Part shown: positions 22,578 to 39,047 of the stretch, in pieces | Layout: each line of letters opens with the position of its first letter | How positions within the stretch are numbered: the stretch's first letter is position 1 | From: Anthocerotibacter panamensis C109 | Lineage (GTDB): Bacteria > Cyanobacteriota > Cyanobacteriia > Gloeobacterales > Anthocerotibacteraceae | NCBI RefSeq assembly: GCF_018389385.1 | Contig: NZ_CP062698.1 | Span: 2,917,501 to 2,981,500, forward strand | DNA length: 64,000 bases | Direction of reading: 5' to 3' | Position numbers and translations under genes: made by a program | Notes under the pieces: model-generated | Told to the model about the DNA's origin: nothing | The model's input: only the letters and a program-made list of their open reading frames with translations | The model's database searches: none

Positions 22578-23681
22578 TCAGTCAAGGAGGTTAGCAACGG
22601 AACGATAGACAGCAAGAGTCTGGGCGGTAGTCTTTTCCCAGCTAAATAATTTTGCCCTTTGCTGGCCTAAAAAAATTAATTCTTCACGCTTACTGGGGGT
22701 TTCACTGAGGTGGAGCAGGATATCAGCTAAGTCGGGGACGGAGGTGGGGTCAAAGAGGATTCCGGCATCGCCTATGACTTCGGGCAGGCTGGAGCGGTTG
22801 GAGGCGATGACGGGGGTTCCGCAGGCCATGGCTTCGAGGGGGGGGATACCGAAGCCTTCGTAGAGGGAGGGATAGACTAGGGCAAGACTACAGCGGTACA
22901 GTTTGGCTAGGTGCTGGTCGTCAGCATAGCCGTAGTATTCGATATTTTGGGTTAGTCCAAGGTCATTGATGGTTTGGTGCTCGGTCTGGTCTAGGGGCGG
23001 GCCAACCAGACAGAGGATGATTTCGGGGTGTAGGGAGGTGACTTTGGCGAAGGCGTTAAGCAGGGTATCGAAGTTTTTGTAGCTGCGGTAGCGCCCGCCT
23101 ACATATAAGTAGTAGGGCCGGGAGGGTACGGGTTCGGGGCCGTGAGTGTGGCGCATATCAATCTCAGAGGCCAGATAGGTAACGATTACGCGCTCTTCGG
23201 GTATGGCATAGTGCTCTAGCAGGTCTTTTTTGGTATTTTCGGAGATGCACAGGATGGTCTGAGCGGCGGTGATGGCTCGACGTTTCTCTGCGGCTTGCTG
23301 TCCATTAGGGTCGATTTTGGGGGCAAAAAGCTCGTGAATCATGTCCCAAACGGTCAGGACAATGGGGTATTTACATGCGCTCAAGTCGGAATAGGCAATC
23401 GTTGTATAGTAGGTGGGATGGATGAGTTTAGGCTGTCCCAAAGCTGCGCTGGTCTGGAAATATTGCTTCTGGAACCATTGTGAAATACGGGCGGGACGAA
23501 ATCTTTTGTAGGAAATTTTTTGTAAGTTGGGATGCTCGGGATAGATAACGTCATCGGTCTCATAGGTTGTAAGCAGAGGAGTGTAGTCTTTGGGCAAGCA
23601 ATTGATTAGATTATTGAAGTAGCGGCTGATACCTCCTTTTTTTTGTGTGTTGTAAATTTGACCGTCGTAGAGAATTCGCAT
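22578..23681 (-). CDS. GT4-family glycosyltransferase (mannosyltransferase-like)
   Basis: 367 aa. The ATG at 23681 overlaps the upstream TAA (TAATG). Contains KKGGISRYFNNLINCLPKDY at the acceptor side, then EGFGIPPLEAMACGTPVIAS and SSLPEVIGDAGILFDP, the hallmark of the mannosyl/rhamnosyl GT4 group also seen at 6851-7948. The first part of the gene is AT-rich while the second half is GC-rich, marking the edge of the AT-rich block that continues upstream. Confidence 0.94.
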   Translation of the reverse strand: MRILYDGQIYNTQKKGGISRYFNNLINCLPKDYTPLLTTYETDDVIYPEHPNLQKISYKRFRPARISQWFQKQYFQTSAALGQPKLIHPTYYTTIAYSDLSACKYPIVLTVWDMIHELFAPKIDPNGQQAAEKRRAITAAQTILCISENTKKDLLEHYAIPEERVIVTYLASEIDMRHTHGPEPVPSRPYYLYVGGRYRSYKNFDTLLNAFAKVTSLHPEIILCLVGPPLDQTEHQTINDLGLTQNIEYYGYADDQHLAKLYRCSLALVYPSLYEGFGIPPLEAMACGTPVIASNRSSLPEVIGDAGILFDPTSVPDLADILLHLSETPSKREELIFLGQQRAKLFSWEKTTAQTLAVYRSVANLLD

Positions 23682-24640
23682 TATCTGAATGTCAAACGCC
23701 TTTTCACTCGCAGTCCTAAATGGTAGATTATGCGCTCAATAAAGCCTAGCAGCAATGCTTTATCCACCTTTAAGGCTGTCTGGAAGATTCTCAGATTTCG
23801 CGCCATTGGTATCTTTCCATCACGGGAAAGAAGGATACAAACCCACCGCTTAAGGAGTTCACTACATACTTTATTTAGAGCTTCTGGAGGAACCTCGAAA
23901 TGTTCACAAATGAATTTGACGACTTTGTAGCTCTCTTCAGTCAGTATCCCGCTGAGTTCTGAACGGTTGGTCGTGGTCTTTGTGTGTCTGCGAAAATAGT
24001 TTAAGTGGTCAGCGATATAAGCTATATCCGAAACCTCTAACATTTTTACCCAAAACATCCAATCAGCACACTGACGGAAAGATTCATCTGCATAGCCAAC
24101 TTTCTCGCACACGCTACGCCGAAGCAGTACAGAACTTGCATTCACAATTGTATTTTGTTGAATCAAGTACTTGGAGCACTCGTCTGCACCGGGATTGATG
24201 TAATGGCTGAGCCAGCGTTCCCTTGGGCTCAGCCATTGGGTGAATGAAAATAATTCTTTTCCAACCTCATCAACCAAAAGGGATTGACAATAAGCTATGC
24301 CGACGTTGGGATGATTATCTAGCAAAGGCACGAGTCTTTGGAGGAAGTTATTCTCTGAGTAGTCATCTGCTTCTGCAATCCAAATATATTCCCCTTTTGC
24401 AAGGCGCATTCCTTTATTCCATTGTTTAAATGGAGAGCCGCTATTAGAATTATTGTAGATAGTTCGTATGCGCGTATCATTAGAAAATTTCTGAACGATC
24501 TCTTCACTTCTATCGGTAGAACAATCATCCAGATAAATAATTTCAAAATCTTGATACGTCTGGTTCAAGATACTACTGAAGCGTTCCTCTAGGAAATGAG
24601 CATAGTTATAATTTGGAATGATAATAGAAACTTTAGGCAT
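23681..24640 (-). CDS. GT2-family glycosyltransferase
   Basis: 319 aa, ATG start. VSIIIPNYNYAHFLEERFSS, IIYLDDCSTDRSEEI and IWIAEADDYSENNFL show the GT-A nucleotide-binding site and DXD-type metal motif. A C-terminal VDKALLLGFIERIIYHLGLR is amphipathic. Codon use and composition are AT-rich compared with genes further downstream, consistent with acquisition from another source together with the next four genes upstream. Confidence 0.92.
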   Translation of the reverse strand: MPKVSIIIPNYNYAHFLEERFSSILNQTYQDFEIIYLDDCSTDRSEEIVQKFSNDTRIRTIYNNSNSGSPFKQWNKGMRLAKGEYIWIAEADDYSENNFLQRLVPLLDNHPNVGIAYCQSLLVDEVGKELFSFTQWLSPRERWLSHYINPGADECSKYLIQQNTIVNASSVLLRRSVCEKVGYADESFRQCADWMFWVKMLEVSDIAYIADHLNYFRRHTKTTTNRSELSGILTEESYKVVKFICEHFEVPPEALNKVCSELLKRWVCILLSRDGKIPMARNLRIFQTALKVDKALLLGFIERIIYHLGLRVKRRLTFR

Positions 24641-24673
24641 TTCAAATTCCTTGAGAGTGATAAGACAAGGAAC

Positions 24674-25825
24674 CTATTCTTGCCTTATTTTTATTTGTTG
24701 ACTTGTTTTTATTATAGCTAGCGCTCTTTGAGTGGCTTCTAAATATGCCAAACCCCATTTCTGGCAAGGTTCCAAGTGGCAACCCTCAGCCCATTCATTC
24801 CAGGCGTTAACAAAGATAATATTTTGGTCAGTGGGTTTCTGAGCAGCTTTTACTCCAACCTTACTTAGCCATTGCTCGTATAGCTCAGGTGTCGCGTTAG
24901 CTAGGATTACTGCACCATTCTTCCGTCGCGCTGTGTTATCCCAAAAAGGTGTTACACAAGGGAAGCGTGTGTACGTTGGTTGAGGTTTTTGGAGCATATG
25001 ATTTACGACTTGTTCATAATCGAAAACCAGATTTTTTGAATACGCAATATTTGCCAAACCTAACTTCTGAGCAAGTCGCCAGCGCCGCCCTTGTTGTAAG
25101 GGTATCCCCAAGTTAAATACATCTGGTTGAAACTCGATAGCAGCATCAAAACCAAACTCTGTTGGATCTGTTCGTTCCTCAGTGAAGTTACTTTCTACAC
25201 GACCTATAAAAAGCTCCCCGATACCAAGCTTTTGCGCTTCTTCTCTCCACAAAGATAGGGTGCGTTGGGGATTCGGTAGCTTTGCAGTACGATAGATAAG
25301 AAATAAAGGCTTGCCATTAACCCGAATATATCTTTTGTCAGAAAATGCTTCTGCAAGTTGACAAATATGATTTTTGTCGTCTTCATCGCTGTATTTCTGC
25401 TCTAGGAGTATTTGCCGGTCTTGTCCATCCCAAGCTCGTGTCCAGTTCTCATTAGCCCAGCACAAGCAAAAAGGAAAGTCAGGCTCTCCTGAAGAAAGAA
25501 CTTCAGTAAAGGGACGCTCCAAGACTCGTCTACCGTTAAACCAGTAGTGATAATAGCAAAATCCATAAATTCCATATTTAGATGCCAAATCAGCTTGTGC
25601 TTGACGGGTTTCAGGTAATCGTAAATCGTAAAATCCTAAATCAGCGGGGAGGTGGGGTTGATAGTGCCCAGGGAATAAAGGTTTAGCTTTAGTTACATTA
25701 GTCCATTCTGTAAATCCTTTACCCCACCATGTATCGTTTTCTGGAATGGGATGGTACTGCGGGAGATAGAAAGCAATTAACTGAGCTTGATGGGTATGAG
25801 CAAACTTTACTGGATTTATTACCAT
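24674..25825 (-). CDS. WbsX-like glycan-processing protein (GH99-like domain)
   Basis: 383 aa. The sequence begins LIAFYLPQYHPIPENDTWWG and contains GFTEWTNVTKAKPLFPGHYQ and FCYYHYWFNGRRVLERPF, the signature of the WbsX family found in O-antigen clusters and related to the GH99 (endo-mannanase) barrel. IIFVNAWNEWAEGCHLEPC near the C-terminus is the conserved NxWNEWAEG block. It is often annotated as a glycosyltransferase, but the fold is that of a hydrolase or transglycosidase; activity is unproven. AT-rich. Confidence 0.92.
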   Translation of the reverse strand: MVINPVKFAHTHQAQLIAFYLPQYHPIPENDTWWGKGFTEWTNVTKAKPLFPGHYQPHLPADLGFYDLRLPETRQAQADLASKYGIYGFCYYHYWFNGRRVLERPFTEVLSSGEPDFPFCLCWANENWTRAWDGQDRQILLEQKYSDEDDKNHICQLAEAFSDKRYIRVNGKPLFLIYRTAKLPNPQRTLSLWREEAQKLGIGELFIGRVESNFTEERTDPTEFGFDAAIEFQPDVFNLGIPLQQGRRWRLAQKLGLANIAYSKNLVFDYEQVVNHMLQKPQPTYTRFPCVTPFWDNTARRKNGAVILANATPELYEQWLSKVGVKAAQKPTDQNIIFVNAWNEWAEGCHLEPCQKWGLAYLEATQRALAIIKTSQQIKIRQE

Positions 25826-25827
25826 TT

Positions 25828-27066
25828 CTATAGTTTTTGATTAATAATTTTTATCAATTCGCATTCTAATCGTTCAACGGCAACATCCCATCCCCATCGT
25901 TCAACTGCATATTTCCTAGATTGTTTTCCCATCTCTTGTAAAAGCTCTTCTTGGGTAAGCAACCTTTTTAAAGCATTTCCAAGAATATTGGGATCGTCTT
26001 CACTAACAAGCAGACCATTTATATTGTCGCACACTACTTCTCGAACTCCACCTTCTGCTAGAGCAACAACTGGTGTTCCACAGGCATTTGCTTCTAAGGG
26101 CGCAAAGCCAAAAGGCTCAAGCTGAGGAGCATATACTAGCGCTGTTGCTCCACTAAGCAAAGTGACTAACTCTTCATCACTCAGGCAGACTTTAAAGTCT
26201 ACGGCAACATTTAAAGATTGAGATAAAGAATTCATTTCTTTTAAATATAAATCATCTGAAAAATTACCAACCCAGATTAGTTTTGGCCGTATATCTTTTT
26301 CAATTGTAGCTAATGCATGTATTACTCTGTCTACCCGTTTACCCAAGTAAATGCCTCCCAATCCCATAACATACTTTTCTTTTTTAGATGCTAAGGGATG
26401 AAAGAGTTTGGTATCAACACCCAAATAACATAGTTTGGAGTTTAGACCATACGCTCGCAGTATACTTTCTCTACTAAATAGTGAATTCACTAAAATTGTG
26501 TCATAAGCTTGAGCATTGGATATTTCTTCCCGTACCTGAACTCTTAGACCCTGTATCCTACATAAATCAAACACAAATTTCTTCAGGTACTGTACAGACC
26601 ATTTTTCTTTAGGAGTTGGGATAGCAGTCCAAGGTAGGTTAGGTAGGGCCTCATAGAGCCATCGGTAGGGCTCTTGTAAATAAAGAACTTTTGGAATACT
26701 TATGTACTTAGGGAGCGAAGTTACTCGAAATTCCATGCAAGGATTAGCAAATAAAACATCAAAGTCGCCTTTTTTGATTTCTTGGGCGCACCGTTTACAG
26801 TGTTCATCCATTGCCTCGATACGGTCTATAACGTTAAAATAGCTATTTAAAAGTATGTCGAGCTTGTTTTTTGTAGGTCTAGGGGCATGTGCAAGTGGGA
26901 CTATATGCTCGGAAATTAGTTTGTTTAATGGCAGATAGGTTTGATCTGCAGTAGGAGGACACCAAGATTCAATTTCATGCCCGCGCTCTAATAAACCACG
27001 CACATGGTAATAGAGCGATCTTTTACCTCCACCACTAGGCAAGTTATGCCAGACAGCAATTTTCAT
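25828..27066 (-). CDS. GT4-family glycosyltransferase
   Basis: 412 aa, ATG at 27066. IAVWHNLPSGGGKRSLYYHV at the N-terminus, VLYLQEPYRWLYEAL in the acceptor half, and EPFGFAPLEANACGTPVVAL (EX7E) with NINGLLV in the donor half. Two base pairs separate it from the WbsX gene downstream. The gene is markedly AT-rich, as are its neighbours. Sugar specificity unknown. Confidence 0.93.
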   Translation of the reverse strand: MKIAVWHNLPSGGGKRSLYYHVRGLLERGHEIESWCPPTADQTYLPLNKLISEHIVPLAHAPRPTKNKLDILLNSYFNVIDRIEAMDEHCKRCAQEIKKGDFDVLFANPCMEFRVTSLPKYISIPKVLYLQEPYRWLYEALPNLPWTAIPTPKEKWSVQYLKKFVFDLCRIQGLRVQVREEISNAQAYDTILVNSLFSRESILRAYGLNSKLCYLGVDTKLFHPLASKKEKYVMGLGGIYLGKRVDRVIHALATIEKDIRPKLIWVGNFSDDLYLKEMNSLSQSLNVAVDFKVCLSDEELVTLLSGATALVYAPQLEPFGFAPLEANACGTPVVALAEGGVREVVCDNINGLLVSEDDPNILGNALKRLLTQEELLQEMGKQSRKYAVERWGWDVAVERLECELIKIINQKL

Positions 27067-27075
27067 AAGCTATTA

Positions 27076-27891
27076 TTATAATACGAGTTTACTAAGCTTT
27101 CTAACGAATTTACCTAGGGGTCCCGTGCCATAGTAGTATTTATCTTGGATATAGAGTATTATCCAGTTCATGAACAGCGGGGTTTTATTTTTGTAAAAAA
27201 TATGAACGTTTGACGCTCCGAAGTAAAAGTATACACACCCTAATGAGTTCGCTAATCTAACTAAGGCATTTCGCGAGAAGAGCGCAATATGGCCTGCATC
27301 AGGATAAATATACCACCAATCTTTAAGTGGGGTAGATGTGCAATCATCGCTTACTTCAGTCGTAAACACGAATAAGCCTTTGCTATTCAGAGAAGCAATA
27401 ATATGGCTAATTGAAGTAAAATCCGGCATATGTTCGATTACTTCTATAGCCCAAACTATCGTATAACCTTTATCCATAGTGCTGATTACTCTATAATTGC
27501 CTTCTATTTCTGGTTTTGTATAGTTGTCGTAATAATAAGTTGGGTAAAGTCTACCCATTAAACTTGCCAAATGTCCTTTACCACCTCCAAAATCAAGAGC
27601 TTTTTTTATAGGAATACGCAAAATAGATTGATAACAATCCAAAACCTTATGAATTACGTTTGCCATTCTGGTTGCGCGTTGCTCTGACCCTAGGTCAATG
27701 GTTTCAAAATAATCACTAGTGTAAACCTTGCTGATTTTATCGATTATCTCTAGCTTATTACTGTGCGAGATCTGCTTGTCAAAAATCATTTGACATCGCG
27801 TGCACTTTAAATAGCAGTACTTAGAATAGAAGCGATCTTCTTTTGTTACTAAATGTTCAGTTGATCCGTTACATACTATGCAAAGGTCCAT
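27076..27891 (-). CDS. class I SAM-dependent methyltransferase with N-terminal Cys motif
   Basis: 271 aa from the ATG at 27891 (a TTG lies two codons upstream). Two CxxC pairs near the N-terminus (C4/C7 and C30/C33) look like a zinc ribbon, as found before sugar C-methyltransferase domains. The SAM-binding motif I is ALDFGGGKGHL (Asp100), followed by VWAIEVIEHMPD, the motif-III region of the Methyltransf_23 family. Likely methylates a sugar or NDP-sugar. The 5' end overlaps the remnant of the ABC ATPase gene by 16 bp. AT-rich. Confidence 0.85.
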   Translation of the reverse strand: MDLCIVCNGSTEHLVTKEDRFYSKYCYLKCTRCQMIFDKQISHSNKLEIIDKISKVYTSDYFETIDLGSEQRATRMANVIHKVLDCYQSILRIPIKKALDFGGGKGHLASLMGRLYPTYYYDNYTKPEIEGNYRVISTMDKGYTIVWAIEVIEHMPDFTSISHIIASLNSKGLFVFTTEVSDDCTSTPLKDWWYIYPDAGHIALFSRNALVRLANSLGCVYFYFGASNVHIFYKNKTPLFMNWIILYIQDKYYYGTGPLGKFVRKLSKLVL

Positions 27892-28261
27892 GTGCAACCC
27901 TCTATATTTTGCTTGCTTTCCTTATGTTTAATATATTTTTCACATACAACGGTAAAGTCTTTTCGGCAATCTAGTGAGATATGGCCTCCTTTTAAAAAGA
28001 TGCCACGACTACATAGGGCGTGTATAGCACCCATATTATGGCTAACAAAAAGAATGGTTCTTTCTTCTTGGCCTACCATCCCCACCTTCCCTAGATATTT
28101 CTTTTGGAATTGAGCATCCCTCACTGCTAAAATCTCTTCGTCGAGAGTGACCGCGCCGTATCTGTGATGACATCCCGAAACGTCCGTGAGCCCTGCTGCT
28201 GCTCATGCCCGATCACATACCTCTTACTCAGGTTTTCGACACGGATAACAGTATCAGACAT
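27876..28261 (-). pseudogene. broken ABC-transporter ATPase (Wzt/TagH type), central region deleted
   Basis: An N-terminal piece (SDTVIRVENLSKRYVIGHEQ, ATG at 28261) runs 44 codons to a TAG at 28127-28129. It is followed, in another frame, by a C-terminal piece starting EEILAVRDAQFQKKYLG and including TILFVSHNMGAI, the H-loop region of polysaccharide-export ATPases. Walker A, Q-loop, signature and Walker B regions are all absent. The gene therefore cannot encode a working ATPase. It is the natural partner of the permease at 30324. An almost identical N-terminal piece occurs again at 29195-29323. Confidence 0.85.
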
Positions 28262-28262
28262 T
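28140..28262. repeat. 123-bp direct repeat, copy 1
   Basis: Matches 29202-29324 with a single mismatch (t versus c within 'catacctctta'/'catacccctta'). Both copies encode the first 41 codons of the ABC ATPase and both end at the same base, where 'gtcgag' meets unrelated sequence. The copies flank the sulfotransferase gene. Confidence 0.95.
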
Positions 28263-28360
28263 AAGTCTCCGATTTGATTCCTAGGGTGCGTCTCTCCGAC
28301 AAAAACTCTGTCACCAAAGTCAGTATGCCACACTCAAAATAGGGTATGTAAATCATCAAG

Positions 28361-29098
28361 TTAATTTTCAAAATGTTCTCTAAGTATTTTATAGAGTTTG
28401 ACATCTAGGAAGTTGACCTCCGCAATCATATTCTTTGTCTCTCCAGAAATTTCTTTAAGTGTGAGGCGTTTGTTCGTTTTATTGATTAGGTGATTTTCAA
28501 ATTGCTTCCAGAGTCCAGCAGTCTCTTCTAATTTGCGAGACACCTCCAGTAGGTCATCCTGAAAACCAATAATCTTATATCTTTGTAAAATAACCTGGAT
28601 AGCTTTCTGGATAGCGGCTTCTGGCTCTCTTTCAGCTTCTTCAATAGAAAGGCCAGTAAAATGCGTAGTATACCAATTTCGCAACTCAGGACTCAGGTTG
28701 GACACAGCATAATCTTGTAGCTCCATATTACTTTTCATTACGGCTTCGTGCAGATAATGAGATTTACTTCGCCTCACATAAAAATAATGCGAGACGATTC
28801 GATCAATGGGATCACGAAAAACTGTCAAGGTTACGGTTTCAGGATGAACATAGTTCAGCAACTCGTGGTTAAGATGGCCTATCACCAAGTGGTATTTATA
28901 TCTCTTATCTTTGTCAAATGATATAAATTGTTGATAAGAGTTGTTGGATGTATTCAATCTATAAGTAAGCCGTTGAGGATAATGAGAGGTCAAAAACTGA
29001 TTAATCGTCGACCCGGCGCATTTAGGCAGGTGATCAAAGAGAACTCGTTTGGGCTGATGTCTCCGGTAGCCGAGCTCTGCCATTAGGTTTTTCAACAT
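28361..29098 (-). CDS. sulfotransferase family 2-like protein
   Basis: 245 aa from the ATG at 29098; a GTG at 29107 would add three residues. The PAPS 5'-phosphosulfate loop is VLFDHLPKCAGSTINQFL and the 3'-phosphate region is TVTVFRDPIDRIVSHYFY; together these identify a Golgi-type/bacterial polysaccharide sulfotransferase. It should transfer sulfate from PAPS to a sugar hydroxyl. AT-rich, and enclosed by a 123-bp direct repeat copied from the ABC ATPase gene, so it appears to have been inserted or transferred into that gene. Confidence 0.9.
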   Translation of the reverse strand: MLKNLMAELGYRRHQPKRVLFDHLPKCAGSTINQFLTSHYPQRLTYRLNTSNNSYQQFISFDKDKRYKYHLVIGHLNHELLNYVHPETVTLTVFRDPIDRIVSHYFYVRRSKSHYLHEAVMKSNMELQDYAVSNLSPELRNWYTTHFTGLSIEEAEREPEAAIQKAIQVILQRYKIIGFQDDLLEVSRKLEETAGLWKQFENHLINKTNKRLTLKEISGETKNMIAEVNFLDVKLYKILREHFEN

Positions 29099-29194
29099 CA
29101 ATTCCACACTCCAGTCAGTTGTTCTTTGAAAAACACAAATTTATGCACGATCACTCTATGTTTTGGGGTGCCTTGATTGCTCTGAGAAAGTATT

Positions 29195-29323
29195 CTAATT
29201 AGTCGAGAGTGACCGCGCCGTATCTGTGATGACATCCCGAAACGTCCGTGAGCCCTGCTGCTGCTCATGCCCGATCACATACCCCTTACTCAGGTTTTCG
29301 ACACGGATAACAGTATCAGACAT
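29195..29323 (-). pseudogene. N-terminal fragment of ABC-transporter ATPase (second copy)
   Basis: ATG at 29323 followed by SDTVIRVENLSKGYVIGHEQ and ending after 42 codons at TAG (29195-29197). It is identical to the first piece of the pseudogene at 27876-28261 apart from one base, and lies in the position expected for the functional ATPase gene, just downstream of the permease and Uma2 genes. Only the beta-strand before the P-loop is encoded. Confidence 0.85.
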
Positions 29324-29324
29324 T
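29202..29324. repeat. 123-bp direct repeat, copy 2
   Basis: Second copy of the repeat at 28140-28262. The start-to-start distance is 1062 bp, and recombination between the copies would delete the sulfotransferase gene cleanly. Confidence 0.95.
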
Positions 29325-29372
29325 CAAGCTCCTCGATCCCTTAGCATCCTTCAAGTATCGCCAAGGAGCCCA

Positions 29373-30254
29373 TTACGACTCCTCTAGACCCAACGCCCGC
29401 AACCGCTGAGCCAGTCGTTCTGCCCGTAGCCGTTCTGCCTCAGCTCGTAGCCGCTCTTGTAAGACTTCATTCTGAAAATTATCAGCTCGTTGCTGCTCTT
29501 GCTCAGCTCGTAGCCGTTCTTGTAAGACTTCATTCTGAAAACTATCAGCCCGTTGCCGCTCTTGCTCAGCTCGTAGCCGCTCTTGCTCCACTTGATACTG
29601 CACTAGGGCTATCCGTTCTAGCCCCCACAACAAAAGATTTCCCGCCTCATCCCACCAACGCAACCACAGCCCCGAACGTTCCGCCTTCGCCCCTTCCCAT
29701 ATACCCAAAAATAAGCCCAAGTCTTCTAGCCAAAAGTGCCCCGCTTCGTTGGGGGTTTGCAGTTCGTACTGCCCTGCTTTCAGCTTGCGCACCTCTAGAA
29801 GCCTTGTGGCAGGATCAAAAATCACATAGGTCGGAACCTGTAGCAGCTTTTCGTAAAAAAACAATTTGCCATAGGGATAACTAGGTCGGATCGAATACTC
29901 CTCATGGTCCGCATCCGACAAAAACTCCATTACCACCAGCGGAGCTTCGCCCTCCGTATGGGGAGTATAGCTCCGCCGCATCTCCACCGTAGGCAATACC
30001 GAAGGGACATAAACCCAATCAGGAGCCTTCACCACCGTCTTGGTATCCACCTTGACACAAAGACCAAAGTTGGAAGCAATAAGACCCGTTGGTGGAATCA
30101 ATCCTGCTAATTCCAAAGCCTCCCGTAGCGCCAAAGCCCAAAAAGGATGGTCTAAGTTTTCCACAGGCTCATCCGGGAGGGGATAATCAGGAGGTAGTTT
30201 TTCCCAAACGATGTCGTATTGACGTTGTGCATAGTGCAGTGTGGCGGCGGTCAT
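29373..30254 (-). CDS. Uma2-family protein with long repeat tail
   Basis: 293 aa, ATG at 30254. The Uma2 core shows KAPDWVYVPSVLPT, VVMEFLSDADHEEYS and YGKLFFYEKLLQVPTYVIFD, and is close to the protein at 11849-12664. The tail holds heptad-like repeats (QERLRAEQEQQRAD, FQNEVL) made of two 63-bp DNA repeats, and ends RLAQRLRALGLEES. It separates the ABC permease from the remains of its ATPase. Function unknown; no link to transport is evident. Confidence 0.88.
   Translation of the reverse strand: MTAATLHYAQRQYDIVWEKLPPDYPLPDEPVENLDHPFWALALREALELAGLIPPTGLIASNFGLCVKVDTKTVVKAPDWVYVPSVLPTVEMRRSYTPHTEGEAPLVVMEFLSDADHEEYSIRPSYPYGKLFFYEKLLQVPTYVIFDPATRLLEVRKLKAGQYELQTPNEAGHFWLEDLGLFLGIWEGAKAERSGLWLRWWDEAGNLLLWGLERIALVQYQVEQERLRAEQERQRADSFQNEVLQERLRAEQEQQRADNFQNEVLQERLRAEAERLRAERLAQRLRALGLEES
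29461..29586. repeat. 63-bp tandem repeat inside Uma2 gene
   Basis: Two copies, 29461-29523 and 29524-29586, differ at a few positions; a half unit precedes the first. 63 bp equals three heptads, so the repeat behaves like the 21-bp repeats of the other two Uma2 genes but with a longer unit. Confidence 0.9.
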
Positions 30255-30323
30255 CGTCCATCAGCTCCCTGAAGCAAATTCAACGTGCCCATAGCCTATC
30301 ACTGCTAGCGTAAGGGTGGAGCC

Positions 30324-31148
30324 TCAAATCACATCCGCAAAAGTCCGCTCCGTCTTACGGAAGTACCAGATTCCGCTTGCCACCAATACCCCAATTACCA
30401 TCAATGAGATCAAAAACGAAGGCCAGTAAAACGCTTCTTGCCCCCGCAGCAGCGCCCAACGGAAGCCATCGATCACCCCAACCATGGGATTGAGCGAATA
30501 GAGCAGACGCCACTGCTCCGGGACGATACTGCTCTTGAAACCCACCGGAGAGATATAGAGGCCAAACTGTACGATAAAAGGCACGATATAGCGGAAGTCG
30601 CGGTATTTGACATTGAGCGCAGCAAGCCATAAACCCGCTCCCATCGCCGCCGCAAACGCCATCAGCGTAAACAGAGGCAGCGTCAAGATCCGCCAATCCG
30701 GCAAAAATTGGTAGACCACCATCAGGAGCGCCAAAATCCCTACTGAGATCAAAAAATCCACCAGACTGACAATCACGGCACTGATCGGGACAATCAGCCG
30801 TGGGAAGTAGACCTTGGCGATCATGTTGGCGTTGTTGACTACACTGTTAGAGCACTCCGAGAGCGCATTAGCAAAAAACTGCCAAGGTAGCATCGCTGCA
30901 AAAACCAAAACCGGATAGGGTACCCCATCCGAAGGCAGCTTGGCGATCTTACTAAAGACCACCGTAAAGACGATCATCGTTAGTACCGGGCGGATCACGC
31001 TCCAGGCGACGCCGATCACAGTCTGCTTGTAGCGCACTAGAATGTCGCGCCATGCCAGGAAATACAACAACTCCTGATAGCGCCACAAATCCCGCCAATA
31101 TTGGCGCTCGGTGCGGCCCGCCTCGATAACCAGCTCCTGATTCGCCAA
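30324..31148 (-). CDS. ABC-2 type polysaccharide export permease (Wzm/TagG/KpsM family)
   Basis: 274 aa. The family N-terminus EAGRTERQYWRDLWRYQELL is intact and six hydrophobic segments follow. RDILVRYKQTVIGVAWSVIR is the typical cytoplasmic and first-membrane region. The start is TTG at 31148, because no ATG or GTG exists in frame before an upstream stop; GGAGCAAGG just before it is a plausible ribosome-binding site. It should form the membrane channel of an ABC exporter for lipid-linked polysaccharide, but its ATPase genes nearby are broken. It would therefore need an ATPase from elsewhere. Confidence 0.94.
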   Translation of the reverse strand: MANQELVIEAGRTERQYWRDLWRYQELLYFLAWRDILVRYKQTVIGVAWSVIRPVLTMIVFTVVFSKIAKLPSDGVPYPVLVFAAMLPWQFFANALSECSNSVVNNANMIAKVYFPRLIVPISAVIVSLVDFLISVGILALLMVVYQFLPDWRILTLPLFTLMAFAAAMGAGLWLAALNVKYRDFRYIVPFIVQFGLYISPVGFKSSIVPEQWRLLYSLNPMVGVIDGFRWALLRGQEAFYWPSFLISLMVIGVLVASGIWYFRKTERTFADVI

Positions 31149-32271: not shown

Positions 32272-34680
32272 GTGGATGATGAGTGGCGTACTCGCATTAC
32301 CCAAGCCCTCCGGGTCGAGGCTGAGAAGGGATTTCCTAATCTTCAGGGGAATCGCTACCGCTTTGCTGAGTTTTTGGCTCTGACCTTCAGTGAACCTGCT
32401 CCTCCCCATCTGCCGGCGCAAGAGCGCAACCTATGGTCGCTGTTGCCCACGTTGTACCGCCGCTATGACTACCTCCCCCCCGAGGAACGAGCGCACCTTG
32501 TCCACCGGACCCGCCATCTGATCGAGCCCGCCCCCGCCCCCAAGACCCCCCCCAAAAAAAACCGATCTATGCCTGTGGGACTCGCCGATCCCCTGACCGC
32601 CCTGGCGGGGATCGGCCCCAAATTTGCCCTCCAATTGGAGCGCCTTGGGCTCAAGACCGTGGGGGACGCGCTGCGCTACTACCCCCGCGACTACGTGGAC
32701 TACAGCCGCCGCACGACAATCAAGCAGATCAAAGAGGGCGAGAGTGTCACCCTGATGGGCAAAGTCCGCCGGGTCAACTGCTTCACCAGCCCGCGCAACA
32801 AAAAGCTCACCATCTTAGACTTAACGGTCGGGGACGGTAGCGGTCAGATGAAGGTCAGCCAGTTTTTTAGGGGTCAGCAATTCGCCCATATCGGCTGGCA
32901 GCAAAAATTGAAACAGGGTTATCCCATCGGGGCGACCGTTGCTCTGAGTGGTCTGGTCAAGACCAGTAAGTACGGACTGACCCTAGACAAGCCCGAGATT
33001 GAAGTCCTCGCCCTAGACGGGGATATCCACTCCAACACGATTGGGCGCATTGTACCTATCTATCCGCTCGCTGAGGGCGTGAGCGTGACGGTGGTCCGCG
33101 AGGCGATCCGCGCTTGCCTACCTGCCGCTCATGCCCTCCAAGACTATTTCCCCCAGTCCTGGCTGACCCGGTTGGATCTGCCCTCTTTGCCGCAGGCTCT
33201 TTTGGATATCCACTTCCCGGAGGACTCAGCCCATGGAGACCGGGCACGCAGACGGATTGTCTTTGAGGAATTTTTCTTTTTGCAGTTAGGGCTGCTGCTG
33301 CGCCGCGAAGAGCGCCGTCGGGTAGAGCGGGGGCAAGCGGTCCCCTTTCAGACCCAAGGGGCGCTGATCGAACAGTTTTATCACATGCTGCCCTTCCAGC
33401 TCACCCGCGCCCAACAGCGGGTGATCGCCGAAGTGCTGGATGATCTTAGCGCCCCAAAGCCGATGAACCGTCTCGTCCAAGGGGATGTGGGTTCCGGGAA
33501 GACCGTTGTGGCGGTGGCTGCGATCCTGGCGGCCCTCCAGTCGGGCTACCAAGCGGCCTTTATGGCCCCGACCGAAGTCCTAGCTGAGCAACACTACCGC
33601 AAACTGGTAGCGTGGTTCGCCCTCATGCACCAGCCCGTCGAGCTACTCACCGGCTCCACCCGCAGTGGCCCGCGCCGCGAGATGCTCCGCCAACTGGCTA
33701 CCGGCGAACTGAGCGTCTTGGTCGGCACCCACGCGCTGATCCAACAGACCGTGCAGTTTTACAACCTCGGGCTGGTGGTCATCGACGAACAACACCGCTT
33801 CGGCGTGGGCCAGCGCGCCCAACTCCAGCACAAGGGCCGCAACCCGGACCTGTTGACCATGACTGCCACCCCAATTCCTCGTACCTTAGCGCTCACCCTC
33901 TACGGCGACTTGGATGTGAGTGAGATCGACGAACTCCCTCCAGGCCGTCAGCCCATCCAGACCACCATCCTCACCCCCCAACAACGCGCCCAGGCGTATC
34001 AATTTTGTGCTCGGGAGATCGCCCAAGGGCGACAGGTCTACGTCGTCTTGCCCCTGGTCGAGGAATCCGAAAAAGTAGACCTGCGCTCGGCGCTGGAGGA
34101 GCACCACCGCCTGCAACACGAAGTTTTTCCCCAGCTCAGGGTCGGCCTGCTCCACGGCAAGATGAAGAGCGCCGAAAAAGACCTCGTCCTCACCCAATTT
34201 CGCCAGCACCAGCTCGATATCTTGGTCAGTACCACGGTCATCGAGGTCGGGGTGGACGTGCCCAATGCCACAGTCATGCTCATTGAACATGCGGAGCGCT
34301 TTGGTCTGGCCCAACTGCATCAGTTGCGCGGTCGGGTCGGTAGGGGAGCAGCCCAGAGCTACTGTCTGTTAATGCACTACACCCAGTCAGAAGCGGCGCA
34401 GCAGCGTCTACAGGTGCTGGTCAACTTCCAGGATGGCTTTGCTATCGCCGAGATGGACCTGCGCCTGCGCGGTCCCGGCGCGGTCTTGGGCACCCGCCAG
34501 TCCGGTCTGCCCGACCTCGCCCTCAGTTCACTGAGCACCGACCAGCAGACCCTCACCCTCGCCCGCCAGGAAGCACAACATCTCCTCCAGCGCGACCCAG
34601 CCCTCAAAGACCATCCTCTCTTACACCAGGAAGTCCAACGCCGACTGGAAAAGCAGTTGGGAGCGCAGGTTCTAAACTAG
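32272..34680 (+). CDS. recG: ATP-dependent DNA helicase RecG
   Basis: 802 aa. RecG remodels stalled replication forks and branch-migrates Holliday junctions. GTG start at 32272; an ATG at 32264 is in another frame. An N-terminal extension of about 100 residues precedes the helix-hairpin-like GIGPKFALQLERLGLKTVGD. The wedge/OB domain follows, with VTLMGKVRRVNCFTSPRNKK. Helicase motifs: QGDVGSGKT (Lys410), VVIDEQHRFGVGQR (DEQH at 505-508), TMTATPIPRTLALTLYGD, VVEVGVDVPNA-type motif V (TVIEVGVDVPNATVM), and QLRGRVGRG. Complete. The N-terminal extension is typical of plant and cyanobacterial RecG. Confidence 0.97.
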   Translation: MDDEWRTRITQALRVEAEKGFPNLQGNRYRFAEFLALTFSEPAPPHLPAQERNLWSLLPTLYRRYDYLPPEERAHLVHRTRHLIEPAPAPKTPPKKNRSMPVGLADPLTALAGIGPKFALQLERLGLKTVGDALRYYPRDYVDYSRRTTIKQIKEGESVTLMGKVRRVNCFTSPRNKKLTILDLTVGDGSGQMKVSQFFRGQQFAHIGWQQKLKQGYPIGATVALSGLVKTSKYGLTLDKPEIEVLALDGDIHSNTIGRIVPIYPLAEGVSVTVVREAIRACLPAAHALQDYFPQSWLTRLDLPSLPQALLDIHFPEDSAHGDRARRRIVFEEFFFLQLGLLLRREERRRVERGQAVPFQTQGALIEQFYHMLPFQLTRAQQRVIAEVLDDLSAPKPMNRLVQGDVGSGKTVVAVAAILAALQSGYQAAFMAPTEVLAEQHYRKLVAWFALMHQPVELLTGSTRSGPRREMLRQLATGELSVLVGTHALIQQTVQFYNLGLVVIDEQHRFGVGQRAQLQHKGRNPDLLTMTATPIPRTLALTLYGDLDVSEIDELPPGRQPIQTTILTPQQRAQAYQFCAREIAQGRQVYVVLPLVEESEKVDLRSALEEHHRLQHEVFPQLRVGLLHGKMKSAEKDLVLTQFRQHQLDILVSTTVIEVGVDVPNATVMLIEHAERFGLAQLHQLRGRVGRGAAQSYCLLMHYTQSEAAQQRLQVLVNFQDGFAIAEMDLRLRGPGAVLGTRQSGLPDLALSSLSTDQQTLTLARQEAQHLLQRDPALKDHPLLHQEVQRRLEKQLGAQVLN

Positions 34681-34735: not shown

Positions 34736-36625
34736 ATGCCTCCCCGAACTGATAATCTGGAAACGCGTTTTGTACGCCCTGAGCCCCTTACCCTGGCAAG
34801 TAAACCGCCGACTAGGGAGGAAGCCCTTGGGCTATTAGCGGAACTTGCCGAAGAACTCAATGCCACCCCGACTCTAGAAGGACTCTTGGGTACCCTGGGC
34901 CGTCGGCTACACCCGTTGGTAGCCTTTGACCGCTGTACCCTGGCGGTGCGGGTGGCTACGGACGCCTATACCCTCTACGATATCTTTTCGGGGGGGCTCT
35001 GGACTCAAGGAGAAACCAGCCCACTCCAGAAGGGCTGGCCGGGTTGGACCATCACGACCGCTGAATTTTGCATTATCGACCCTCTGGCGGATGTGCACCC
35101 TCCTTCAGGAGACCATTTCGGGGTGGTGTACGGGGCAAAGGCCCTCATCCTGTTACCCTTGGGGAGCCACGGGGAAGTCTTTGGGAGCTTGAACCTCAGT
35201 ACCTATGAGCCCGGAGCCTATCCTCCAGACCTGCGCAATCTGGTGCACCTCTTGGCGCTCTATCTGGGTGGACACCTGAGTGCGCTTGCCTGCCAACAGC
35301 GCATGGCGCTGACTTTGGAGGACCTCACAGAACTACGCCAGACCCCAGACGAAGCCAGGGTGCACCAACTGAACGAGGTCAATCGTGCCTTGGCGCAACA
35401 GGTGGCCCAGCGCACTGCACAACTCCAACAGACACGCGACTTTGAAGTAGCCCTCCAACACATCACGGACAAAATCCGCGACAGCCTGGACGAGCGCCAG
35501 ATCCTCCAGACTGCCGTGACCGGACTGGCGCAGACCCTCAAGGCCAAAGCCTGCCACGCCGCCCTTTACAGCCCTCAAAAAAACCGCTCTACCGTCTGCT
35601 ACGAAGCTTGCGACCCGGACTTTCCCTCGTTACTTGGTCATGTGGTGCAGCTAGAAGCGAGCGACTCACGGATTGAGGTCAATGCTGTTCGCCTGCTGAG
35701 CCAGCTCCATTGCCATTACGAGCAGATGCTCCTCTGTCCGGTCGAGGCCCCCTCCGGCCTCATAGACGCGGTGACCGGGCATCTCACGGTTGTTAATCAA
35801 GACCCAGAGACGCCCTTCAGCGACCGTGAAGTCCGCTTGGTCCAGCAGGTAGCCGACCAATGCGCCATCGCCTTGCGGCAGAGCCGCCTCTACCAAGCCG
35901 TTCAGCAACAAGGGGCGACGTTGGAGCGTCTGGGCCAACTTAAGGACGATTTCCTCAGCACAGTCTCCCATGAGTTACGCACGCCCGTCTCCAACATGAA
36001 GATGGCGATTCACATGCTCAAGAGCTATCCTGACCCCAGGCAATGCCCACAGTACCTGGACATTCTCGAGCGTGAGTGCAACCGTGAAATCGCCTTGATC
36101 AACGACCTGCTCGATCTCCATAATCTTACAGAGAACACCCGCCCGCTCTACTTGGAAGAAGTGCCCCTGCTGTCCTGGTTGAACCAACTCCTCCAGCCCT
36201 TCTGGGCGCGTACCCACGAGCGTTCCCAGCAGCTTGAACTGAGCATCGCTGAGGGAATGCCTAACCTCTTTACCGAACGCGCCAGCCTCGAACGTGTGCT
36301 GGTTGAACTGTTGAACAATGCCTGCAAATACACCCCCGCTAACGCATGCATCCTCCTCCGGTGTCGGGTGAATCCTGAGGCCCTTCCAGAACCGCAGATC
36401 GAGCTGGAAGTAAGCAACTCCGGCAGCGAAATCCCAGCGGTGGAGTTGCCGTTTATCTTTGAGAAGTTTTATCGGATTCCCAGCCATGATCCCTGGCAGC
36501 AAGGAGGGACCGGCCTGGGGCTCTCTCTGGTCAAAAAGCTGGTCGCCCGCCTCGGAGGGAACATCCAGGCCAGCAGCACCCCAGCGCTCACTTCCTTCAC
36601 CGTGAGCCTGCCCTGGCCGCACTGA
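34736..36625 (+). CDS. GAF-domain sensor histidine kinase
   Basis: 629 aa, ATG start, 55 bp after recG. Layout: an N-terminal GAF-like domain (about 25-200), coiled linker (LNEVNRALAQQVAQRTAQLQ), a second GAF-like domain (about 235-390), HisKA dimerisation domain with DDFLSTVSHELRTPVSNMKM (phospho-acceptor His412), and a HATPase domain with N-box LVELLNNACKYTP, FIFEKFYRIP and GGTGLGLSLVKK. It has no transmembrane segment, so it is cytoplasmic. The GAF ligand is unknown; no Cys in the canonical bilin-binding position was identified. It is a possible kinase for the regulator at 37030, whose receiver lacks the acceptor Asp. Confidence 0.95.
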   Translation: MPPRTDNLETRFVRPEPLTLASKPPTREEALGLLAELAEELNATPTLEGLLGTLGRRLHPLVAFDRCTLAVRVATDAYTLYDIFSGGLWTQGETSPLQKGWPGWTITTAEFCIIDPLADVHPPSGDHFGVVYGAKALILLPLGSHGEVFGSLNLSTYEPGAYPPDLRNLVHLLALYLGGHLSALACQQRMALTLEDLTELRQTPDEARVHQLNEVNRALAQQVAQRTAQLQQTRDFEVALQHITDKIRDSLDERQILQTAVTGLAQTLKAKACHAALYSPQKNRSTVCYEACDPDFPSLLGHVVQLEASDSRIEVNAVRLLSQLHCHYEQMLLCPVEAPSGLIDAVTGHLTVVNQDPETPFSDREVRLVQQVADQCAIALRQSRLYQAVQQQGATLERLGQLKDDFLSTVSHELRTPVSNMKMAIHMLKSYPDPRQCPQYLDILERECNREIALINDLLDLHNLTENTRPLYLEEVPLLSWLNQLLQPFWARTHERSQQLELSIAEGMPNLFTERASLERVLVELLNNACKYTPANACILLRCRVNPEALPEPQIELEVSNSGSEIPAVELPFIFEKFYRIPSHDPWQQGGTGLGLSLVKKLVARLGGNIQASSTPALTSFTVSLPWPH

Positions 36626-36766: not shown

Positions 36767-36991
36767 ATGTCTCCCACCCGCGTCGAAATACGGCCCCATG
36801 TGCTCCATCCCGACAACTGCACTGTCAGTATCTACCGAGATAATGTCTTAGTGTACACCCATGTCCAGCGGGCCGAGCAGATAGAGGATATAGTTAAAGA
36901 CTTGCGTCGCAAAGGGTGCGATATCTGCTGGGACAACGCGGCTGGAGCCCCGTACCGCGACTGGCACAAGTCCCACCAGGAGCCTAGCTGA
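36767..36991 (+). CDS. small protein of unknown function
   Basis: 74 aa. The start is set by a strong Shine-Dalgarno, aggaggg, four bases before ATG 36767; an in-frame alternative lies at 36746. Sequence MSPTRVEIRPHVLHPDNCTV ... IYRDNVLVYTHVQRAEQIED ... RRKGCDICWDNAAGAPYRDW. Mixed beta/helix pattern with three Cys; no known domain recognised. It ends 38 bp from the convergent response-regulator gene. Confidence 0.65.
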   Translation: MSPTRVEIRPHVLHPDNCTVSIYRDNVLVYTHVQRAEQIEDIVKDLRRKGCDICWDNAAGAPYRDWHKSHQEPS

Positions 36992-37029: not shown

Positions 37030-37623
37030 TTATCCCAAGCCCACTTTCAGCGCCCAGTGCGTCAGTTCAGTCCGGTTATGCAGCCCTGTTTTCATCAGAA
37101 TAAACCGGATGTGCCCTTCTACAGTCCGGCGAGCAATACCCATTTGCTCGGCGATTACTTTGTTGGATTTTCCTAAGATGAGATGTTTGAGGATTTCCTC
37201 CTCCATCGGCGTGAACCGGGGTAGCGATTGCGTCGATTTTTCGGTGCTCGAATGGTTTACCCGGCGCAAGATAGCTTGGATGTGAGCTACCAACTCCTCA
37301 GGCTCAAAAGGCTTGGTCAGAAAGGCATCCGCTCCTCTGCGCAGGGCCATGACCCGGTTGTTGACCCCCCCGCGCACCGAGACGAGGAGCATAGGGAGTT
37401 GGGCATAGGCGGGCGTTTGGCGCACTGTATCGAGCAGGGTGTAGCCATCTATTCCCGGTAAAACCGCCTCACATAAAATGAGATCGGGTATCTGTTGGGC
37501 CAACTGGCTCAAGGCTGTCGAGCCATCCTGGGCACACACCACCTCAAAGCCATAACCCTCGAGGATATCCCTCAGTAATTCCAAGTAAAGCGGGTCATTG
37601 TCAATTAGTAAGAGTCTGGTCAT
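37030..37623 (-). CDS. NarL/FixJ-type response regulator with Glu in place of the phospho-acceptor Asp
   Basis: 197 aa, ATG start. The receiver domain (1-120) has the acidic pocket (LLIDNDP, Asp8), the conserved Ser of LLVSVRGG and Lys104 of FLTKPFEP. However, the acceptor site reads DLILCEAVLPGIDG, so residue 52 is Glu. The LuxR-type HTH follows (about 133-195; EEEILKHLILGKSNKVIAEQ, ARRTVEGHIRFILMKTGLHN), DNA-binding and complete. Glu at this site often mimics phosphorylation, so the regulator may be constitutively active or controlled otherwise. Divergent from the kinase-like gene at 37932. Confidence 0.93.
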   Translation of the reverse strand: MTRLLLIDNDPLYLELLRDILEGYGFEVVCAQDGSTALSQLAQQIPDLILCEAVLPGIDGYTLLDTVRQTPAYAQLPMLLVSVRGGVNNRVMALRRGADAFLTKPFEPEELVAHIQAILRRVNHSSTEKSTQSLPRFTPMEEEILKHLILGKSNKVIAEQMGIARRTVEGHIRFILMKTGLHNRTELTHWALKVGLG

Positions 37624-37931
37624 GCACCGGGTGTCTATCTTTTCACATCTTACGTGAGTGCTTGAAGCTAGCGGAAGTTGGCCCCTAGCTTCCCCTATTC
37701 AGAATTCCCTTCCTTGGGGTGTAAGAGCGCGTTTAAGCCATTTTTGCTCTATTCTCTACCTGCGGACAGACGTTAAGCAGCCCCTCATAGGCATGAACGT
37801 CCTGTACAACCTGCCTCTGTGCCTCGGGGTAGATGCTAGACAGAGACTCCTCTTGTTAAGAAAACAACCACAGGATCATCCGTAGGATTTTGTGCCGAGT
37901 CGGGCTAAAAGCACCTGTGAGGAGCGTCCGT
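37624..37931. promoter_or_regulatory. divergent promoter region with 8-bp inverted repeat
   Basis: 308 bp between the response regulator and the PAS/kinase-like gene. Contains an 8-bp perfect inverted repeat GAAGCTAG (37664-37671) and CTAGCTTC (37685-37692), separated by 13 bp and about 45 bp upstream of the regulator start. It could be an operator for the regulator itself or a hairpin. A GAGGAG Shine-Dalgarno for the plus-strand gene lies at its end. No ORF or RNA gene recognised. Confidence 0.4.
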
Positions 37932-39047
37932 ATGGGGAACCAATTCTTTGCAGGAGAACGGGGGAACCTTTCTCTCGAAGCGTTACAGCACGCCGTAGAA
38001 GTGCTCGAGACCCACAACAGACAACTGATGGAAGCGATTGAGTTCCAGCACGGATACTATCAAGACCTGCTTGATTTTGCTCCAGATGGCTATCTGGTGA
38101 CCAATACCGCAGGAGTAATTCTGGAGGCGAACCGGGCGGCGGTCCAGCTATTGCGGTCGCCCACGGTCCTGGTTGGGGATTCTTTGGGGAAATTTATGGA
38201 CCCGACGGCGGTCCTCTTGCAAGACCAACTCCAGCGCCTACAGCGGGTCGGTCGCCTCGAATGGCAGGTCCGCCTCTTCCCACAGGGGGCTGTGCCTTTT
38301 GACAGTAGCCTCACAGTAGCTATCATCCAGGACCAAGCGGGCAAAGTGCCCGTCCTGCGCTGGCGGGTGCGCGACATCACTACCGAAAAGCTCCGGGAGG
38401 CCGAATATCAGCGGGTTGTGGCCCAACTAGCCCAGACGCATCCCCTCCAAGACCCAGGCCACCTTTTGCAGACAGTGGCCCAACACCTGCGCGCCCCGGT
38501 CACAAACCTCAAGCTCGCTTTGCATCTGCTGCGCACCGGCTTGCGCCCTCAGCCGCAGGCCCGCTATCTGGAGGTCTTAGAGCACGAAGGAAAACGCCAG
38601 ATCCAGATCCTCGACAGCCTGCTGGAGTTGGCGCAACTGGAGTCAGGAGCCCGCAGCCCTGTCCTGGAGTTTATCGACCTCTCGGAATGGTTGCCCTGTC
38701 TGGCTCGTCCCTTCGCGCAACGGGCTCAGGAGCGCAACCGGTCGTTTGTCTTGGACCTGGCGGAGGGAATTGTGGGCCTGACCACGGACTTTAGTGCTTT
38801 GCACCGTATCTTGGTGGAATTCCTAGGGCACTGTGAACCGACCCGAGAGGGAGCCCTAGCCTTGCAGGTAACGGTTCACGATGCGCTTGTGTTTACGGTC
38901 TGGGGTCAAGATCTGAGCGGACAGGAGCGCAGCTTGAGCCCCCTGACGAGCAGATTGATCGAGAAGCTAGCGCAGATGCTGAGGGCTGTAGTGCGCATCG
39001 AGGGCACCGCCGCAGGCCGGATCTGCACGTTGGAGTTGGGCCGCTAG
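37932..39047 (+). CDS. PAS-domain histidine-kinase-like protein with degenerate catalytic sites
   Basis: 371 aa from ATG 37932, preceded by GAGGAG at good spacing. A PAS domain (about 35-165; FAPDGYLVTNTAGVILEANR) is followed by a HisKA-like domain that aligns closely with the kinase at 34736. Where that protein has TVSHELRTP, this one has TVAQHLRAP, so the phospho-acceptor His is Gln184 and the next Glu is His185. The C-terminal ATPase-like part has LVEFLGHCEPTR instead of the N-box and no G-boxes. Probably not an active kinase; it may dimerise or sense. Its stop overlaps the convergent gene's stop at CTAG. Confidence 0.88.
   Translation: MGNQFFAGERGNLSLEALQHAVEVLETHNRQLMEAIEFQHGYYQDLLDFAPDGYLVTNTAGVILEANRAAVQLLRSPTVLVGDSLGKFMDPTAVLLQDQLQRLQRVGRLEWQVRLFPQGAVPFDSSLTVAIIQDQAGKVPVLRWRVRDITTEKLREAEYQRVVAQLAQTHPLQDPGHLLQTVAQHLRAPVTNLKLALHLLRTGLRPQPQARYLEVLEHEGKRQIQILDSLLELAQLESGARSPVLEFIDLSEWLPCLARPFAQRAQERNRSFVLDLAEGIVGLTTDFSALHRILVEFLGHCEPTREGALALQVTVHDALVFTVWGQDLSGQERSLSPLTSRLIEKLAQMLRAVVRIEGTAAGRICTLELGR

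Follow-up and report, generated by a model that had tools for sequence, protein, structure and literature searches.

Two genes of Anthocerotibacter panamensis face away from each other, one encoding a response regulator and the other a protein shaped like a histidine kinase, and they raise the question of whether such neighbours could signal to one another without the transfer of phosphate. The genome is a single contig of 4,187,797 bases, and the window analysed here is the 64,000-nucleotide stretch of it at 2917501-2981500 (Table). A preliminary description of this DNA had called both products "phosphorylation-blind", and their sequences lend good support to its claim that neither is fit for ordinary His-Asp phosphotransfer. 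Aspartate-less regulators and pseudo-kinases are both already known; what is unusual is only their juxtaposition and the natural occurrence in the regulator of a double substitution resembling that of a PhoB mutant. According to a 2025 review (PMC12632262), the way in which bacterial pseudo-receivers are switched on and off is mysterious; a pseudo-receiver beside an apparently dead PAS kinase-like protein provides a specific candidate controller.

Table. Features of the regulator and pseudo-kinase locus, in positions of the window
Feature	Position	Strand	Remark
recG	32272-34680	+	
Intact histidine kinase, GAF-GAF-HisKA-HATPase_c, His412	34736-36625	+	Alternative partner
74-aa ORF	36767-36991	+	
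NarL/FixJ-type response regulator, aspartate-less receiver (E52, N9) and LuxR/GerE HTH	37623-37030	-	
GAG codon for regulator Glu52	37468-37470	-	
Divergent intergenic region between regulator and pseudo-kinase	37624-37931		308 bp; 266 bp with TTG start
11-mer CACTCACGTAA	37650-37660	-	Upstream of regulator; other genome copy upstream of ORF 39463-39044
Pseudo-histidine kinase, PAS, DHp and degenerate CA, Q184 in H-box	37932-39047	+	
CAA codon for pseudo-kinase Gln184, H-box TVAQHLRAP	38481-38483	+	
139-aa ORF	39463-39044	-	

Residue numbers of the pseudo-kinase assume that it starts with the ATG at 37932; if the TTG at 37890 is used instead, which is the start given by the ORF finder and is also possible, Gln184 becomes Gln198. 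No synteny with the locus was found in the sister genus. The motif TTACGTGAGTG occurs in two exact copies in the 4.19-Mb genome (37650-37660 and 39480-39490), each lying tens of bases 5' of a minus-strand ORF, and is a weak lead because an exact repeat of this kind should occur about once in 3 kb anyway. Elsewhere in the window, a block of low G+C content at 22578-31148 (0.38-0.50 against about 0.57) encodes glycosyltransferases, a sulfotransferase-like protein and an ABC-type exporter permease, and was perhaps acquired.

The regulator and its altered receiver

The regulator is a protein of 197 residues that matches the Pfam families Response_reg (2.9e-24) and GerE (1e-14, residues 137-191). 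This N-terminal receiver followed by a GerE/LuxR helix-turn-helix defines the NarL/FixJ type, and FixJ, LiaR and NarL are found among its fold matches. Residue 52, reported earlier as Glu at the site of the receiver Asp, is indeed exceptional, being Asp in 43/43 of the closest family members aligned with it, which come from the order and the class. All 43 also carry Asp at residue 9, the second Mg-binding acid, where the regulator has Asn, a change that the preliminary description did not include. With a receiver recognised by PF00072 and the phosphorylation-site Asp absent, the protein is, as read from its alignment, an aspartate-less NarL-type response regulator. Its own genome yields 51 receiver matches, of which no other has Glu at the phosphosite; one low-scoring match among them is also devoid of a clear aspartate.

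The cyanobacterial NarL-type family to which the regulator belongs is left unnamed here, Rre1/Ycf29 being a candidate identity only. The family is present as a single copy in most genomes, and all relatives retrieved in the orthologue search bear the Asp. One of them is an intact paralogue that A. panamensis itself encodes (L068; 1964644-1965246) and that adjoins an ABC1-kinase-like gene, a setting shared by its counterpart in the sister genus (L069). In the family tree the regulator sits on a very long branch, with copies from two genomes of the same order as its nearest, weakly placed neighbours; orthology with a divergent second copy of the sister genus (L070), which likewise involves long branches, is neither supported nor rejected (AU p 0.30). 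A further relative, one of the family in genome G007 (L073), has a normal Asp and is encoded two genes from a kinase with a normal His whose DHp domain is of the same subfamily as that of the pseudo-kinase. Regulators of this family and kinases of this subfamily may therefore, as this neighbourhood hints, be partners.

Of 89 strongly conserved columns, the regulator deviates at 29, which are spread across both of its domains. These departures show no significant excess in active-site columns (5/11 vs 9/41, p 0.14), so that erosion confined to the active site is not upheld and the protein could simply be fast-evolving. Ser82, Lys104 and the KPFEPEELVA segment are retained, and residue 101 is Phe in place of Tyr.

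The receiver aligns without gaps to that of PhoB (37% identity), placing Asn9 at Asp10 and Glu52 at Asp53. Among the fold matches of the regulator is PDB 2jb9, a PhoB structure carrying D10A and D53E and titled as a constitutively active double mutant. By analogy, Glu52 and Asn9, along with Ser82, Phe101 and Lys104, would most likely keep the receiver active-like, and the simplest reading is of a receiver that is active-like without phosphate, from which we infer constitutive activity. A receiver freed from phosphorylation in this manner would leave the output of the regulator to be set by the amount made and by its binding partners. Glu is the commonest replacement in aspartate-less receivers (PMC4395418); a D-to-E exchange alone often requires a second change, and Asn is common at the second acid of pseudo-receivers (PMC4395418, PMC12632262). 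The D-to-E exchange is not always the explanation, as the activity of ChxR survived replacement of its Glu (PMC4395418).

The divergent kinase-like protein

The pseudo-kinase is matched by the Pfam PAS and HisKA (1.1e-10) models and has no Pfam match to HATPase_c, a domain recognised at 1.6e-20 in the intact kinase at 34736. Alignment of the two confirms that Gln184 stands where the intact kinase has His412, and the absence of N- and G-boxes noted beforehand extends to the N-box, G1, F-box and G2 (GGTGLGL), all of which are replaced or deleted. The protein thus combines a HisKA domain devoid of the phosphoacceptor His with an ATP-binding domain that is non-functional as judged from sequence only, and it would be unable to autophosphorylate.

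Its PAS domain is 40-42% identical to those of ordinary kinases of one group, and its DHp domain is 39% identical to that of the intact kinase and 48% identical to that of a distant paralogue at 2825 kb. The protein therefore looks like a chimaera, with a PAS domain near one kinase group and a DHp domain near another. A recent duplication of the intact kinase is not favoured as its origin, because the DHp domain is nearer to the distant paralogue. Searches of 59 related genomes, of the 9 genomes available for the order and of the species contigs in GTDB r220 found no orthologue. The N-terminal module of the pseudo-kinase also occurs in a stand-alone PAS protein (L007:1366-2193; genome about 3068698-3069525), which has a coiled-coil-like end and no kinase core.

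The AF2 model of the pseudo-kinase comprises the PAS domain, a DHp of two helices and a CA domain that is compact and lacks the ATP-lid stretch, with a mean pLDDT of 84 and CA blocks mostly above 85, although such models rest on alignments of working homologues and may conceal decay. In structural comparison the DHp-CA portion best matches DivL (Z 19.6) and RetS (Z 18.8); since a kinase of an active family ties with them (Z 19.2), the fold cannot separate a pseudo-kinase from an active one. With its PAS sensor attached to a DHp-CA core that has the shape of a kinase but is, from its sequence, catalytically dead, the protein would be expected to work by binding alone, its DHp either docking the receiver of the regulator or pairing with the related intact kinase.

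Maintenance of the genes and His loss in the genome

A further possibility is that one or both genes are decaying and have been caught before the first frameshift. In favour of it, they are unique to one species among the genomes searched and have diverged fast. However, their divergence is well beyond what unconstrained frames survive: in simulated unconstrained drift, limited to substitutions and excluding indels, the frame stayed open in 14% (regulator) and 3% (pseudo-kinase) of cases at 0.1 substitutions per site, and in 3% and 0.1%, respectively, at 0.2. The third-position G+C is 0.63 for the regulator and 0.70 for the pseudo-kinase, which is normal beside their neighbours, and the regulator retains the invariant K104, E107, R166 and H171. 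Decay is accordingly held to be highly improbable, and both genes look folded and maintained.

Loss of the phosphoacceptor His is a recurrent feature of this genome, where 3 of the 31 HisKA domains are affected: that of the pseudo-kinase (Gln) and two found beyond the preliminary description, at 1032308 (Leu) and 3766319 (Arg), all three of which align with one DHp subfamily. Published surveys give rates of 0.9% for HisKA domains without His and 2.0% for receivers without Asp (PMC12632262), and an older count gives about 4% of receivers without Asp, or two per genome (PMC4395418). By binomial arithmetic at the published HisKA rate, only about 0.3% of genomes with 31 such domains would have that many His-less ones, and His loss is thus enriched here. 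The Leu case (1031885-1032991; L245:3886-4992) is a receiver-HisKA-HATPase protein with a normal receiver Asp, the H-box TASLELKTP and an HATPase_c domain that still matches. Its syntenic relative in the sister genus, split there into two frames (G001:C34), retains the His, which suggests that such losses are recent in this genome. The Arg case (3765881-3767179, minus strand; L244:1882-3180) combines a GAF domain with a degenerate HisKA (RELKSS), lacks recognisable ATPase boxes, and is by its alignment another pseudo-kinase of the same subfamily. Counts of His-less HisKA domains are 1/33 in the sister genus G001 and 0/17 in genome G002.

Two proteins with altered H-boxes were observed in other genomes. 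An RsbRD_N-HisKA-HATPase protein of G001 (L313:2766-3992) has Gln in its H-box (AQEVRAP) and an intact ATPase match. In G045, a receiver-DHp protein (L037:2368-3090) with Glu in its H-box and no CA domain is encoded next to a complete receiver-kinase gene.

The enrichment bears on the possibility that the two genes are unrelated, their phosphosites having been lost separately during a lineage-wide drift of two-component systems and their adjacency having arisen by chance. In this genome the chance of a His-less kinase beside the regulator is 10% if one adjacent kinase is counted and about 19% if both of the kinases flanking it are. Yet the intact frames, the conserved PAS and HTH domains and the confidently predicted folds speak against drift, and coincidence is considered unlikely.

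Candidate partners and known counterparts

The preliminary description had used the intact kinase only as a yardstick for the missing His. That kinase lies on the other flank of the regulator and belongs to the same DHp subfamily as the pseudo-kinase, making it an equally good partner. Since His loss is common in this genome and the intact kinase is available as well, the mere proximity of the regulator and the pseudo-kinase says little about whether they belong together. Their partnership and any mode of binding, as set out below, are hypothetical.

One alternative is that the true partner of the pseudo-kinase is the intact kinase, the two forming a DHp heterodimer tuned by the PAS domain while the regulator acts independently or is a bystander. 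The two kinases share one DHp subfamily and are encoded on the same strand 1.3 kb apart. There are precedents as well: RetS acts in this way on GacS, and the top fold matches of the pseudo-kinase include the RetS-GacS complex (7n0e); ChrS without a working CA domain heterodimerises with HrrS and alters output (PMC9491836). Against this, the DHp domain of the pseudo-kinase is closer to the paralogue at 2825 kb, and a kinase-kinase pairing is judged unlikely. The reading that is tentatively preferred, its chances falling a little short of even, is that of a diverged, phosphate-free NarL-type regulator and a divergently encoded PAS pseudo-kinase that signals only by binding. A more specific form of it, a phosphate-free two-component pair in which the DHp of the pseudo-kinase holds or releases a permanently active-like regulator and a ligand signal is passed on by binding alone, much as the preliminary description envisaged, is plausible but unlikely. 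No known pair of a His-less kinase and an atypical regulator was found in the open-access literature.

For the pseudo-kinase, the likeness to known systems extends to DivL, RetS and the CA-less ChrS, which are kinase-shaped and whose role is to bind a partner, although it is by the fold of the DHp-CA portion that the protein is likened to them, and to DivL and RetS only. In DivL a Tyr replaces the His, and RetS retains its CA domain, whereas the pseudo-kinase has lost the His together with every ATP box and the lid.

The regulator shares with ChxR (Glu), RitR and other aspartate-less or pseudo-receiver regulators a Glu phosphosite, an altered second acid and a DNA-binding output, but differs from them in that its NarL-type family is otherwise Asp-bearing in all sampled members. 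Most of the bacterial aspartate-less regulators studied are orphans, whereas this one adjoins a His-less kinase-like gene. With its cyanobacterial family it has in common the domain order and about 40-45% full-length identity, and is set apart from it by the two acids that the relatives retain. Another parallel is PhoB D10A/D53E, in which the same two positions are changed. That protein was engineered, with Ala at the first position and an OmpR-type output; the regulator is natural, has Asn there and carries a NarL-type output, and its N9/E52 pair allows a test of whether evolution reached the same pair of activating changes.
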